NCBI GenBank assembly: GCA_010093485.1
Contig: MU001501.1
Coordinates: forward strand, 1,443,052-1,507,051
Reading direction: 5' to 3'
Length of the DNA stretch: 64,000 bases
Source of the DNA: Karstenula rhodostoma CBS 690.94
Lineage: Eukaryota; Ascomycota; Dothideomycetes; Pleosporales; Didymosphaeriaceae
The notes under the pieces were generated by a model. It searched no databases and was not told the origin of the DNA. It worked only from the letters and a program-made list of their open reading frames with translations. A program made the position numbers and the translations under genes. Shown one piece after another: positions 33,723-41,991 of this stretch. How positions within the stretch are numbered: the first letter of the stretch is position 1; every line of letters begins with the position of its first letter.

Positions 33723-36016
33723 ATGGCGTCCGCGTTGCGCCCGACCGGCCGCTTCTATGCCGCATTCTATCGCTGGAGCTGCTCTACAGGTAGGGGAGAA
33801 GTTGTCCCCGTACCGAAGCACGCCTGTTTACATGCTCTGTAGTGCGAGCTCCGCATTGCACTCGTTCCATACGCCGTTCCCCGCCCTGCTTCGAAACTCG
33901 CGCCCGCCACGCCTATTCAACCACCAGACCGCTCCTGCACGACAATGCAGCTGCTTCAACCCCCGAAGCGAGTCGCGATGAGAGAACTTCGGCCTCAGCT
34001 GATCAGGAGGCGACCATCCTATCTCCAGACCCCGTCTCCATGCAGGAGACCATGCGTAGCCTCATGCGCCACGTACCGAGCACCGTCACCGTCATTACTG
34101 CCTTCGGGGAGCACACAGACTCACGTACGCCCCTTCCCGTCGGCAGCGCCATATCCTCCTTGACCACCGTTACGCTCGATCCGCCACATGTGTCTTTCAA
34201 CATCAAAACTCCGTCGAGAACGCTCGATGCGATCCGCGAGACGGGAGGCCGATTCTGCGTTCATTTCCTCGACAACTCGATTATTGCGGCGAAGGTCGCC
34301 CAAAACTTCACCGAAGGGAACTCAATCGAGACCTTGCGCAGGCGACGGCAAAAGTTCACGTTCGAATATCCCCCCACCGATCACATGCAACAACCCCCAA
34401 AACTTGTATCTCGCTGCGTTCTTGCTTCTATGACCTGCAAATTGGTACAGGAAGCTACAGTAGCTGATCATGTTGTCGCCATAGCAAGTGTGAATGAACT
34501 TTCGGCCAGACAAGATCAAGCGCCGGCCTTGATGTATCATGAAGGAAAGTTCAAGAGATATAACGGCTCCACGTTGTACCAACACAAGGCCCCTGCTCTC
34601 GGTCAGACGTTCATTGGTCACGGCGTTTATTGCAGCTACCCACTGTTCCCAGGGGATGCTGAGAAGGAAGACTTCATTTCCCGGGCCAAAGAGTACATCG
34701 AACAGAACCAAGCCGAATTCCTCGCAGCTCCTTCTACTTCACGCGCTACAATATTGAAAGACGGATGGGGGATACAGTCTGGTACCTTTGGTTTGAACCT
34801 CACCCGGCTCGTGGACCAATGCATGGCCGAGCTCGGTTTACATTCAGACCAGGAGCCATGTCTGAACAATGCTCCCCTTACATATCGCTTTTACGGGCAA
34901 CTAAGTCCAACCGATATTACCACGATAGCTAATCAGGCCAAGGCTCTTGTTGAAAACAATCCAGCGGCCTTAGACGGGGACTACTTCACAGTCCTAGATC
35001 GGCTGGACGTTTGTCCCTGGGGCACTAATCTGCTTGCCAGTGATATCCTGGTGCCTTTGCGCGAAGGCGGGTTGATCGCGCCTTTTGAGCTGCGCAGCAT
35101 TGACCCTAAAGCTACCCTGGACCTTGGTCACTTGGAACAGGTCGAACATCGAGTGTTCAAGTTCCTCAAGACCATTCCCCGCGAACAGGCGTATCGCATG
35201 AAATTAGGCAGAATCCAAAATGATGCAGGATTACAGCAGCTTCATATGATCTACTTGAAGCAGATACTCCCTCGTATCACAGCAGAGGTGTGTCCCGATG
35301 CATTCTCTTCACCTCAAGTCGACTTGAGGGGTCAATTGTCGCCGGAAGAAGTCCGCGTTGCTGTCATTCGCATGGTGAATGCTCTCTCTGATGCCAAAAT
35401 TTACCCGACATTTACATCCTTGCCGAAGGCCGAGATCTTGCGCGAACTGGGCGTACACCCCATGGCCACAGGCGCTAATCTAGACTTTCTCTGGGAGAAA
35501 ATGAACCATATGAGGGCAACGACGAAAGACAGCAACGCGCTCGAGGAGGCCGTGGATATGATGCTGGACACGATGCCGGACCCTCTGTTCGAAAAGGGCT
35601 CCTTCAAGTTGGAAGAAGTCCAATCGCGAGTCAGGAAACTGGTTAATTCGCATCCTCTCAGTGTCCTCGCATGGTCAACCAGTGACATAGTAGCGGCCAT
35701 GGGGCTCCGCTACGGTGCCACGACCGTACCGCACAAGGGCAAGGACGTGCAGATTCACAGCCTGATCCGCAAGATCTTCAGAGAAGCGCTCAAAGCGAGG
35801 GTTGGAGACGACGGAGTCACCGCCGAAGAGAAAGCCGCGATCAACGAGTACTCACGCCTTTTCTTGGCGCCCAGGCCTAAAGGGTGGGTAATGCCTGCTG
35901 CTGAAGCGGCAAAGTTCTCTAGACCGAAAGTCTTGAGTTGGCGCTACCAGAAGGAAGAGCAAAAGGTAAAGGAGAGAGAGGAGAAGAAAGAAGAGGCTGG
36001 GGCTCTGGGAGTTTGA
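33723..36016 (+). CDS. Flavin-reductase-like domain protein, probably mitochondrial, with long C-terminal repeat region
   Basis: Exons 33,723-33,789 and 33,843-36,016 give 746 residues. The first exon supplies the only ATG that splices into frame and a presequence-like start (MASALRPTGRFYAAFYRW). Residues about 90-270 form a flavin-reductase-like split-barrel domain: MRHVPSTVTVITA, then SAISSLTTVTLDPPHVSFNI and RFCVHFLD. Such proteins bind FMN and reduce flavin or serve as NADH:FMN partners. The remaining 470 residues are not a family I recognise. They hold three loosely similar segments near residues 374, 517 and 611, with a pattern like LSPEEV-x-x-x-x-x-x-LV, then S-x-x-DI-x-x-LG. Length far exceeds simple flavin reductases (about 200). 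The substrate cannot be told. Confidence 0.7.
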
Positions 36017-36577: not shown

Positions 36578-39500
36578 TCAAGCCCTCGACACACACTCAG
36601 TCAGCGCAGTCCACCCCTCGACCCGCCACGGCGCAAGCACCACACCCCGCTGCGCATCTCCCACAGCCCCAGTCCCCACCACCGCATCCGCCAACCCCCG
36701 CGCATCCAACCCACCCACAGGCGGCACACTCCTTCCCGCCGTCTCCCTAGCCATCACCGCCGCGAACGCGCCCTCCTCCGCCGCCCCAGCCAACTCCTTC
36801 CACCCGTTGTGCTTCCACGGCGCGAGCATGACGCTGCGCCTCGCCTCATCCAGCCCGTTGTCCTCCCCACCAAGGAACACGGAAATGGCTTCGACGACCT
36901 TCTCCACGCGCGCGAGGTCAGACGGCGACACATCCGCAGCCGTGCGCAGCGCATCGAGATCCTCCTTTACCGCCGCCATGGTGTCCTCGTCGCCGTCCGC
37001 GACCGCCATCGCACCGAGCAGCGTCACAATGCCTACGTGGCGCCCGTGCGTCTCCACGGCGGTGAAGAGCTGCTCGCGCGCAACGTCCTTTTCGTTGTCG
37101 CCGCCTTTGGCCCACAGGACTTCGGCGAGGAGGCAGATGATGTCGGGATCGGAGTTCGTGGCGGAGAGACACGTGCGGAAGTAGGGGATTGCAGCGTCGA
37201 GGTCGCCGTGGAAGTAGTGCGCGAGGCCGGCAGTGAGGCGCGCCGACAGGGTTGTTTTGTCGAGTGCAGCGGGGGAGAGCACGGCGGCGTTGGTCTGCGT
37301 GTCGAAGTCGGAGAGGAGCTCGAGGGCTGTCTCGGCTTCCTCGACGGCGGGGCCGTAGGAGCCTGTTGCGAGGAGGTTGCGTGCGAGGTCATTCTTTGCT
37401 TTGGCGAAGCGAACGAGGGCCGAGAGCGACTCGGAGGTTTCGTAGTCTTGCTCTGCGACTTCGCAGATGGTGGTGAGGGCTTGGATGGCGGAGTCGTGGT
37501 TGCCGATGCGCTCGAGGAAGAGGGCGGCGAGGTGCTTATGCGGGATGTCGTATGGGGCTTGGAAACCTAGCTGGTGGAGGGCGAACAAGGGCTGTATGAG
37601 GTTGGTGATGTTGCTCGATGCGGAGGGCGAGGAGATCAGGAAATCAAAGGTCGATACGGCGTATTGGCGCTTTGTGATTAATGACGAAGAGTCGGAAAGC
37701 TCAAATGCGTGTGTGAAGTGCGAAAGCGCTTCGTTTGTCTCGCCAAAGAGTAGGGCGACGATGCCTTCTCCTACCCATGCCAACGCGTAGTCTGGATCCG
37801 TAGACTGTGCACGAGAAAAGGCTTGGTGTGCGAGCTCGGTATCGTTTTGAAGGAGGTAAAGCGTGCCCAGATTAGTCCATGCGCGAACGCTTCGCTCATT
37901 CAGATGTAGAGACCGGACGAGAGCATGTTGAGCGACTTTGGGGTTGAGTGTCGTAGTGATGACACCTAGGGAGTTCCAGAACTCAGAGTTGCCGGCCTCG
38001 AGCTCAATGGCTCGCTTGAAGCACCGCATTGCGGCTCGGAGATACGTGGTGAGGCTCGAATCTTGGGTGACTTCCTGCTCCAGGCAGACGTGGGCACGGT
38101 ATTCGGTCCAGCCCAGGTTGTACCAAGCAACGGCTTGCGCATGGATGTCGTGCGCACAGCTTGCAATTGCTCGTTTGTGCGCAAGTATCGATGCTCTCAA
38201 CACTGTCGCTATGGTTGAGGATTTCTCCGATGAGAGAGTAGCCAGATCGCTAGCCCCAATGCCGTCAACGTCTTTATGAGCATCCAGATCCAGCTCGATG
38301 TCCGACTTGCTGTTGAGGAGTTGGGCCACCTGGCTCCCCGGATATTGCTGCAGCTTCTCTTGAACCCAGGTGAATATGCTTAGAGCATCGCCAACAGCTT
38401 TCCACAGATTGAATGCATCGGGTTTATACTCCGTGATTGTGAGGGCAACATGGATAGCCCTCGTCGCACTGTCTGCCGCCTCACCAAAGAAGCCGGTTTC
38501 GATGCACCGCCAGCCCTTCTCTACCAGCGTCTGGACTAGTGCGATCGAAACTCCAAACTCCTGAGACCGCTCTTTGAGGACCTCTTCATATCCTTCAATG
38601 GCCTCGTTATACTCGCTGAGTTCGCGGTTGACGTTTGCCAGCATGTACTTCGCGAACCAGCCCTCGCTGTCCGCTTTCTTGATTGTTACACCTTCGGAAG
38701 GATTCTCAGCATAGTTGAAGGCTTTCGCGGCAGAGTTGTAGCGACCCGAGTTATGGTAGCTCTCGCCGAGACCAATGTACGAATGGTAGTCGTCGGGACT
38801 GATGCGGAGAGCCGATAGAAAAGAAACAATGCTCTTCTGGTACTCCTGCTTGTTCATCTGCACTACTCCAAGCGCGGAGAATGGCCAGCTGACGCTCTTC
38901 TTCTTCGAACCCGGCGCGGTCTTGACCTTCCCGGAGTCTACCACCCTCTGTGATATCACCTCCACGATGTCCCATTCACCTTGGTTGGCAAACAGACGCG
39001 CCAATCTTTCCGCTGCAACAATCTCTGAAGGCGAAAGCTCAAAGGCTTTCTGGAAACACTGTCTCGCGCGCCTTTTGTCTTTGTTGTACTCCTCGTAGAA
39101 GATACCGAGCTTAGTGTATGCGGGTGCAAAGTTAGGGTTGGCCTTGATGGCAGCCAAATACTTCGCGTAAGGCCCGGCACGGTCGCGACGGGCTGCTTTG
39201 GACGGATCAAGCTCCCACATGCAAACGCCTATCCTATACAGTGTTTGCGCTCGGAGCTCGCGGCCTCGCGGTTTCGATGCGTCTAGCTGGGGGTACTCAA
39301 GGTAGTCTTGAAGTCTTGAGAGACCGGCCTGGTAGTCGCCACTGAGCGCCTGGCACCAGGCTGCCTCTGCGCCGATGCGGCCATTTGCTGGGTCCTGCTT
39401 CAGTGCTTGCTCAAGAAATTCGAAGGCATTAGCATATTCCTCCTCCTCTTCCAGAATGAGTCCGATACCGATCAAAGCTGCAGTGAACTGGGGCTTTCGC

Positions 39501-40049
39501 TTCAATATTGCCTCAAAGATGCCTTTTGCCTCGGGATGATTCCTTGGGGTCTGGTAGTAGACCAGTGCTGTTGCCAATGTGCTGTTCAGTGCGTCTCGCA
39601 TCCTTTTGAAGTCAGCTCAGGCCTCAGCACCAGAGGAGTGATTGCTACCTCTGAAACGACAAGTCTGTCCTCTTCGCTTCGGTGGCCGCAAGCCGCAGGC
39701 CTTTCCGTGTAATCTCAACAGCGCTCTCATACTCTTCCAGATACAGATAGAACTCTCCAAGAAGACAGTGCGCAAGTGCTGAGTTCTTGGCGTTCTCAAT
39801 GCCCTCGGTCATCAACATCAAGCAATCTTCTTGTGTGAGTGGCTCATTCTGGCTGAGCGATACCCCACCCTCGCTCAAATCTGGGGCGTCGGCACTCTCG
39901 ACTTTAAGAGGATACCGGGACAAGCCGCTGCTCAAGTAGCCAGTCACTACTTTTGAGAGACCCTCGTTGGGGAAAAGCTCGACATATTGGCGTAACGTCT
40001 GGATGTCCAGGTCTAGGAAGTCATGTGCGCTGTTTGCGTGTGACGCCAT
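36578..40049 (-). CDS. SKI3: C-terminal part of Ski3 (superkiller TPR protein), separated by inversion
   Basis: Exons 40,049-39,649 and 39,602-36,578 (intron 46 bp) give 1141 residues. The start is MASHANSAHDF, the only ATG in frame; the frame opens further but only with TTG. From LRQYVELFPNEGLSKV onward the protein follows Ski3 in order: the LYYQ-x-PRNHPEAK segment, LIGIGLILEEEEEY, AKYLAAIKANPNFAPAYTKLGI and the typical C-terminal LAPW-x-VEGW repeats. TPR helices run through most of the length. Ski3 is the scaffold of the cytoplasmic Ski2-Ski3-Ski8 complex, which feeds mRNA to the exosome. The first third of normal Ski3 is missing here and is encoded by the divergent + strand gene at 40,366-41,281. 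Together they make 1428 residues, about the size of intact Ski3 (1432 in yeast). Confidence 0.85.
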
Positions 40050-40365
40050 TGGAAGTAAATTCGGAAAGAACACCAGCAAATGGATAGAACCGGCCGGAAA
40101 GCAAGCAGATAGCGAGGGTCGAACAACTATGCGTGCCCTGAGAGCGCGTGGAGTGAAAGATCAGTGGACGTATAAGCTAGTGGGGCGTCGAAGTGTCAAT
40201 ATGAGGCTTATAGGGCTGAATTAAGCTTTGCCTAGCGCGGGGAACGTCATACATTGCACCCAGTCGCCCGCCCACCCACGCGTCTCCCCGCGTCCATGGC
40301 AAACAAATGATCCTTTGCGCGCATTGCGCTCCACCTGCCACCTCCAGTCCCTTCGATTATCCGCC
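40050..40365. promoter_or_regulatory. Divergent promoter between the two SKI3 halves
   Basis: 316 bp between the two start codons. Under the inversion model this contains the original SKI3 promoter, now next to the N-terminal half and firing in the opposite direction. The C-terminal half must use this stretch as a newly acquired or bidirectional promoter. No TATA box or factor site is claimed. Confidence 0.5.
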
Positions 40366-41281
40366 ATGTCCACCAAAGCAGCGCTCAAAGCCGCCAAGGC
40401 AGCCATCGACGCCAAAAAGTGGGATGAAGCCATCGAGCAAGCGAACGCGGTACTCGCAAAGGACCCCGAGAACTACTTCGCGAAGCTTTTCATAGGGCGC
40501 GCGCAGGACGGCCTTGGAAAACTAGATTCGGCTGCACAGGCATACAACGATGCGACAAAGATCAAGCCCCAGGATCCGCAGGCATGGTTAGGACTGAGGG
40601 GCTTGTACCAGAAGCAGGGAAAGGCGAAGGTGGACGAGCGGATCGATGTCGAGCTGCAGTTGGCGCAGATATACGCAGAGCTGTATGTTGTGTTCTCCGG
40701 ACAATGCTATCGAGAGCAGCTTCTAACCTTCTAGTGACGATGCACACAAGGCGCAGACCGCCATCGACAGCCTCGTCGACCACGCAAGAAAATACGGAAC
40801 AAAGCAGCAATACGCCCGCGCCCTCGCCACACAGACTCCCACTTCGCCCATTTACTCCTATCTCGAGGGCCGCCTACCCCAACCCGCCGCAGTCTACACG
40901 CGCCTCGCTGAGATCTACGAAGGCGAAGAAACGGCTACTATCAAGCATCAGATTGACGAGCGCAGGTCCAGGCTCGGCGCGACACTCGAGGGCACGAAAA
41001 CAGAAGTAAAAAACGAGGTATATGGGTCAAGCCCATTGGAGGATATCTACCAGAATATCGTGGATTGGACGGGCGACGATACGCTGAGGAGGGAATACGA
41101 GGAGAAGCTGCTGCAGAGAGCATACGATACGCTGCTCGTGTTACCAGCCGGAAAGAAGGACGCCAAGAGGGAGAAGGTCATCAAGCTGGCGCACGACATG
41201 GTTATCATCAGGCACCCGTATCCGCTTGCTTGGCAGATAGAGCTCGAGTGGAGATCGGGGCTTGCGGTGGAGGCGTATTGA
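40366..41281 (+). CDS. SKI3: N-terminal part of Ski3, separated by inversion
   Basis: Exons 40,366-40,682 and 40,735-41,281 (intron 52 bp, CTTCTAAC branch site) give 287 residues. It starts in a good context (CCGCCATGTCC) with MSTKAALKAAKAAID, the normal Ski3 N-terminus. It continues with TPRs (AAQAYNDATKIKPQDPQAW), KYGTKQQYARALA, YLEGRLPQPAAVYTRLAEI, SPLEDIYQNIVDWT and the basic VIIRHPYPLAWQIELEW segment. There the Ski3 homology stops: the frame ends six residues after the LEWRSG. Intact Ski3 would continue with the LRQYVELFP block that opens the - strand gene 1.2 kb away. In yeast this region belongs to the N-terminal arm. Whether the two polypeptides reassemble is unknown. Confidence 0.85.
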
Positions 41282-41416
41282 GACACAGCCAAAGTGGAAA
41301 GGAATCATGTTCGAGTGGCTTCTCGAATCCGTATATTTCAGGATACTTGACACCATAAAATCACATTGCAGAACTCATGTCCATCCCTGAACGCCACCCA
41401 TGCATGCTTTCGTGCA

Positions 41417-41991
41417 CTAGCCAGTCGCATTGACGACCCTCCTCTTCTCCTCGGCCGAATAGATGCTCGAACCCTGCCTCAAGGCATGCACTAGCATCGG
41501 CAAACTGCTAGCCTTGAAGTCCTGCGCGTCGCGAACTTTGACGAGGTCATCCGCAAGCTCTGCTGTGATCTTCTTCAAGTAGATGGATGAAAATTCCTCT
41601 GGGTCCTTTTGCGGTGCTTTCGCTTTTGCTGCTGCTGGAGCTGGAGCTGAAGCTGGTGCAGGTGACGGCGACGCAGATGAATGTGAAGACGGTGCATCAT
41701 GTGCGTCTGTCATGGGAATGTCGTCATCTTGAGGAGTGGGTGCAGGCTAGAAAGGTGAGCCCAAGTCACAGAGGGTTAAATCTATAGACGGCCTTACCAC
41801 TTGTTTGCTCTTTTTGGGCTTCTTGGTGCTCTGCTGGGGCGTGTCGCTGTCGCTTTCTGAAGACGAGACTTCGACTGCAAACGTTAATCACGTCCCTTCA
41901 GGAATATGGACGACGTACCCTGAGTTCGGCTCTTGCTCTTCTTCTTACGGCCTCTCTTTTCTGCGAATGCTGATCCTCTTGCTGGCGCCAT
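41417..41991 (-). CDS. RSA3: Ribosome assembly protein 3
   Basis: Exons 41,991-41,919, 41,874-41,798 and 41,746-41,417 give 159 residues. The N-terminus is a basic stretch (EKRGRKKKSKSR) fitting a nucleolar protein, then an acidic Ser/Asp run and an Ala/Pro-rich linker. The C-terminal Rsa3 domain (about residues 95-155) shows FSSIYLKKITAELADDL, DFKASSLPMLVHALRQG and the final EEKRRVV. Yeast Rsa3 acts with the Dbp6 group in early pre-60S assembly. The C-terminal domain is encoded in the last exon; the first two exons are inferred from splice sites with good GTACGT and GTAAGG donors. It is convergent with the SKI3 N-terminal gene. Confidence 0.8.

Follow-up and report, generated by a model that had tools for sequence, protein, structure and literature searches.

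Ski3 is the scaffold of the helicase that passes mRNA on from ribosomes to the exosome, and in most organisms it is a single-piece protein. In the 64,000-nucleotide stretch of Karstenula rhodostoma CBS 690.94 analysed here (the window), SKI3 is present as two clean genes placed head to head, one on the plus strand encoding the N-terminal 287 amino acids (the N-part) and one on the minus strand encoding the C-terminal 1141 amino acids (the C-part). The N-part gene model opens with the start codon at 40366 and consists of exon 1 (40366..40682, +), a 52-nt intron (40683..40734, +) of the form GTATGT...CTAAC...TAG whose removal restores the frame, and exon 2 (40735..41281, +), which holds a TPR_22 domain identified with Pfam and ends with the stop codon at 41279-41281. 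Its spliced product is 100% identical to the annotated protein P0001 of the same strain. The C-part gene model runs on the minus strand from the start codon at 40049 through exon 1 (39649..40049), a 46-nt intron (39603..39648) and exon 2 (36578..39602), which encodes the array of tetratricopeptide repeats (TPRs; gene model and Pfam) and carries the stop codon at its low end. The C-part start is conserved in relatives as a MASHADSAHD-like sequence. Neither frame contains internal stops, and the two start codons are separated by 316 bp (40050..40365).

Both products are recognisable as Ski3. The TPR_22 domain (PF18833) in exon 2 of the N-part, characteristic of the N-terminus of Ski3, scored 91.1 bits (cut-off 27.2), and the exon matched yeast Ski3 directly in a sequence search; the C-part reached yeast Ski3 through P0121, a relative that is 95% identical. 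Taken together the two halves display full-length, collinear homology to intact fungal Ski3. The last residue that plainly aligns with intact Ski3 is W278 of the N-part (codon 41249..41251, +), and the codons past it make up a new C-terminal tail. The cut falls in a loop between helices, directly after the N-terminal module, and no residues were lost. The predicted structure of the N-part is a compact domain (mean predicted local distance difference test score, pLDDT, of 91.7) with yeast Ski3 as its best match in the PDB. The likeness to intact Ski3/TTC37 (SKIC3), the TPR subunit of the Ski2-Ski3-Ski8 complex, is that both halves align with it end to end and match the yeast structure 4buj. The difference is that intact Ski3 is a single gene and protein, whereas here there are two of each, with the cut near yeast residue 296 (chain numbering of 4buj_B). 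A continuous polypeptide is not encoded, the genes lying on opposite strands with a start and a stop of their own, and the locus thus encodes a two-piece Ski3 and not a standard one. A preliminary description of the window had proposed this arrangement with nothing missing at the junction; the coordinates, strands, introns and lengths it gave all hold, and in the alignment with intact Ski3 the blocks adjoin at the junction with none absent.

The 44-Mb assembly of this fungus contains one N-part locus and one C-part locus, and no second SKI3 copy or leftover of either half was seen in it. SKI2 is present in the genome, as a gene with a Ski2_N domain was found. Several annotations give the two halves one and the same name, 'Superkiller protein 3' (P0003/P0123, P0011/P0124 and P0004/P0125), so automatic naming recognised each half alone as Ski3.

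The two-gene form is found far beyond K. rhodostoma. A search for standalone N-parts, which admitted proteins of 158-502 amino acids only, gave 166 matches; 120 were listed and 102 inspected, the 18 listed matches outside the inspected set being short pieces. Standalone N-parts of 281-292 amino acids with matching ends account for 93 of the 102. Their carriers include Alternaria, Bipolaris, Plenodomus, Didymella, Melanomma, Lophiotrema, Sporormia, Delitschia and others, which we take to be Pleosporales, and N-parts were also found in Glonium (Gloniales), Lophium and Lepidopterella (Mytilinidiales) and Zopfia (Dothideomycetes incertae sedis). The search for C-parts could return proteins of 628-1996 amino acids and gave 1534 matches out of the 7996 top candidates. 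Of the 120 matches listed, none is longer than 1243 amino acids; those with a species name measure 1098-1148 amino acids, and many shorter ones without a species name begin inside the protein. These standalone C-parts occur in the same Pleosporales as the N-parts.

Intact Ski3 was sought through its N region within proteins of 786-2499 amino acids, and 118 of the 120 matches listed (of 216) were at least 1338 amino acids long. The best of them, from Macrophomina, scored 375 bits, and full-length split N-parts scored 371-626 bits. Among the lineages looked up, Macrophomina belongs to the Botryosphaeriales, one carrier each to the Patellariales and the Acrospermales, and Coniosporium is incertae sedis; judged by name, further carriers are presumably Botryosphaeriales, Dothideales, Capnodiales and relatives, Venturiales, lichens, Aspergillus and others. 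To our knowledge, no species among the 120 listed intact proteins (of 216) is a member of the split clade, although an intact copy from the Pleosporales should have scored above the listed matches. As far as the annotated proteins go, the split is clade-wide and not private to this genome. A 1400-amino-acid 'superkiller protein 3' filed under Quercus suber, the cork oak (P0349), ranks among the fungal Ski3 proteins and is probably a fungal contamination.

This distribution bears on the simplest technical explanation, an assembly or annotation error in which a collinear SKI3 had its N-terminal piece flipped. Its probability is close to nil, because the same two proteins appear in dozens of assemblies with the conserved new start and with stops of their own. 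An assembly flip and an intact second SKI3 elsewhere in the genome, the two circumstances held in the preliminary description to speak against a natural split, were both rejected, the former from the annotations of other assemblies and the latter from the single loci in the fungus's own genome. The joining of two transcripts by trans-splicing was also considered and appears unlikely, given that the N-parts have their own stops and the C-parts a conserved MASHADS-like start. The clean frames, introns and stops had been read as a sign that both halves are in use, and conservation in relatives bears out that both look like maintained genes. That the split is ancient and shared by a whole clade had not been foreseen.

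The phylogenies point to a single origin. In the tree of the N region (residues 1-278; 22 split and 29 intact rows; rooted on an outgroup) the split forms occupy one side of one branch, with support of 100/96 (the bootstrap had not yet converged completely), and make up one clade nested among intact Dothideomycetes. The C-part tree (18 split and 29 intact rows), which covers lineages other than the Gloniales and Mytilinidiales, also places the split rows on a single branch, with a value of 100 in the Shimodaira-Hasegawa-like approximate likelihood ratio test (SH-aLRT). The nearest intact neighbour differs between the two, being Botryosphaeriales and Coniosporium in the N tree and, weakly, Pseudovirgaria in the C tree. 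The rooted N tree shows the intact form to be ancestral and the split form derived, and the C tree agrees on one origin; the fission probably took place once, in an ancestor common to Pleosporales, Gloniales and Mytilinidiales. The crown age of Pleosporales is given as 206 (171-254) million years and the parting of Pleosporales and Hysteriales as 236 (188-300) million years in passages of a dated phylogeny (PMC7912389). The split should be of that order or older, because Mytilinidiales and Gloniales also carry it, and we infer that the fission is probably about 200 million years old or more, the Mytilinidiales and Gloniales themselves being undated in those passages.

The two halves have stayed together. 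For species or assemblies named in both the N and the C listings, matched by the size of their longest contig, the longest contig was the same for both halves in 40 of the 45 tabulated, or 40 of 46 when Alternaria alternata is included. It differed in Boeremia exigua, Alternaria rosae, Bipolaris maydis, Alternaria burnsii and Paraphaeosphaeria minitans, and in A. alternata; in several of the five differing tabulated rows the halves come from different strains or from different annotations, and in A. rosae the tags are consecutive. In eleven cases the shared contig is shorter than 300 kb, and one of these measures 40 kb. The serial tags of the two halves are consecutive in all five annotations that display such tags for both (J4E90, J4E91, J1614, IAQ61 and ACET3X), a count from which record numbers of the Joint Genome Institute type, as in Ampelomyces, were excluded. 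Lasting linkage of the N- and C-parts is thereby established in the Pleosporales. It stands out because gene order in Dothideomycetes is shuffled by intrachromosomal inversions, which are frequent (Ohm et al. 2012, PMC3516569).

Both halves have also evolved at similar rates. The mean distances for the N and C portions were 0.394 and 0.358 in split species (ratio 1.10; 18 species, 153 pairs), and 0.599 and 0.635 in intact species (ratio 0.94; 29 species, 406 pairs). Both halves are under ordinary constraint, neither of them decaying, and both fission products have been kept at the protein level. In windows chosen because they flank the cut, and among species that are related to one another, N residues 250-278 beside the cut were the most conserved of all N windows in the split species (22 rows; 99.6th percentile) and unremarkable in intact species (29 rows; 71st percentile). 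It may be that the contact on the N side has been kept and perhaps strengthened, and the pattern is suggestive in this respect. The C-part linker of residues 46-74 (39828-39914, -) ranked lowest in intact species and at the 21st percentile in split species. It contains the motif PDLSEGGV, which is kept in the five split species compared and is possibly a new docking motif.

The most likely consequence is a Ski3 made of two subunits that come together again without a covalent bond. In such an arrangement the N-part would still act as the N-terminal arm of Ski3, with its last helices packing on two short helices kept at the N-terminus of the C-part. Behind these helices a flexible linker would lead to the TPR array, the part that binds Ski2 and Ski8. 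In human SKI3 the N-terminal arm (TPRs 1-8) is flexible and has not been modelled (PMC8860381), and the contacts of human SKI3 to SKI7 and the 40S subunit are made at TPRs 29-30 and 39-40 (PMC11540850); a detached arm docking at the module boundary is structurally plausible for these reasons. The same two observations would also allow Ski3 to work without its arm, and lend something to the main functional rival, by which the N-part left the Ski complex for a job of its own and the C-part alone serves as Ski3. This we regard as improbable, since the N- and C-parts remain linked with similar evolutionary rates, and since no window of the N-part is more conserved in split species than the helix next to the cut. 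That SKI3 underwent one fission in a common ancestor, and that both halves have since been kept as a two-subunit Ski3, is in our judgement probable. The natural two-piece Ski3 of the preliminary description is well supported as regards the genes and their evolution, and physical reassembly keeps the status of a prediction.

Some observations weigh against this interpretation. At C distances of 0.3-0.5 the N/C ratio was 1.10 in split species (137 pairs) and 1.05 in intact species (30 pairs), so that the N half evolves slightly faster relative to the C half in split than in intact species, a pattern that mildly relaxed constraint could equally explain. Residues 11-45 of the C-part were of average conservation (split species, 47th percentile; intact species, 46th), and no docking surface stands out on the C side. 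The C-parts of the Gloniales and Mytilinidiales (Glonium, Lophium and Lepidopterella) were absent from the 120 of 1534 matches listed. Lastly, the head-to-head layout is seen in this genome only, a shared longest contig telling neither strand nor exact distance. On orientation in a relative there is a weak hint: the predicted protein P0126 extends about 86 residues upstream of the MAS start, and two pieces of this extension match the minus strand at 40,248-40,180 and 40,076-40,017, in the correct order and at an E-value of 0.03 only; P0126 and the N-part exon piece P0105 have the same longest contig size (30,131). The extension of P0194 matches this region at the start codon alone. Prokaryote genomes and viral contigs, searched for DNA of relatives, contained none.

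From the layout in this one genome, a single inversion appears to be the best mechanism and explains the arrangement well, as the halves stand head to head with nothing lost at the junction. A single inversion that took in the old promoter together with the N-terminal module would have split SKI3. The N half would have retained the old promoter, and the same 316-bp region would have come to lie upstream of the C half, making it a two-way promoter that was formerly the promoter of SKI3. At its other end the N half would have become the tail-to-tail neighbour of RSA3 (ribosome assembly protein 3, PF14615, identified with Pfam; 41417-41746, -). The 135 bp between the stop codons of the N-part and RSA3 (41282..41416) could form a shared terminator region, in which the RSA3 terminator serves both genes, and would mark the second supposed breakpoint of the inversion. 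Durrens et al. (2008, PMC2557144) point out that a fission leaves one of its products in need of a new promoter. This hurdle is said to make fission harder than fusion. Here the hurdle would be removed because the inversion would place one promoter region upstream of both halves. No inverted repeat arms were found at the two supposed breakpoints, only matches of 13-21 nt in 39,900-41,700, together with a weak tandem repeat at 41,628-41,659; breakpoint repeats are not informative after so long a time.

An equally ancient and real fission could have come about by other routes, either by a split in place through a new stop and start or by duplication and complementary loss, with the N half flipped later. 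The flip itself would be easy, as local inversions are frequent in Dothideomycetes (PMC3516569), and domain loss after fission is mentioned for the Drosophila monkey king genes (PMC2557144). Such origins nevertheless require at least two events. After a split in place the C half would initially lack a promoter, which is the hurdle named in PMC2557144, and no leftover copy of either half is present in this genome. We hold a multi-step origin to be rather unlikely, though the least remote of the rivals considered here.

Elsewhere in the window, an open frame of 740 amino acids at 33794-36016 (+) carries a flavin reductase domain at residues 91-255; about 480 further residues are without a Pfam match at E 0.001.

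The split of SKI3 has counterparts in known systems. The fungal gene fissions of Durrens et al. (PMC2557144) likewise turn one ancestral gene into two, with inversion mentioned as one possible cause, whereas here the halves lie head to head across a short region from which both could have had a promoter straight away; the text of that paper makes no mention of Ski3. In the split mitochondrial cox2 of scoliid wasps, protists and plants (PMC5374615, PMC9895450), two complementary products are also thought to form one complex, but cox2 is an organelle gene whose split is described as insertional, and SKI3 is a nuclear gene for a different protein that was probably split by inversion. The mesosynteny of Dothideomycetes (PMC3516569) arises in the same fungal class through the same kind of rearrangement, intrachromosomal inversion, but here one breakpoint would sit inside a coding region with both products surviving. 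Among the matches listed in searches of the literature on Ski3, gene fission and inversion, Dothideomycetes and Pleosporales, the scope of which mostly excluded subscription papers, no report of a SKI3 split was found. The novelty is that, across a whole clade, a conserved scaffold of RNA decay has been divided by fission into a linked pair, which stands head to head in this genome.

A clade that has long kept the arm of Ski3 as a separate protein is a natural experiment, in that it reveals a site at which Ski3 can be cut and predicts an interface between the N- and C-parts. The split also lets the arm, which is lacking in the human structures cited above, be deleted or tagged as a gene of its own, and the locus provides a test case for one inversion overcoming the promoter problem of gene fission. 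More tentatively, and with a good deal of doubt, the Ski complex of a large fungal clade may have gained a subunit, in that what was once the arm of Ski3 would today be a protein of its own, detachable and docking next to the break. In this way an arm once fixed may have become a regulatable or exchangeable part, kept in step with the rest of Ski3 by a promoter region that one inversion would have made two-way.

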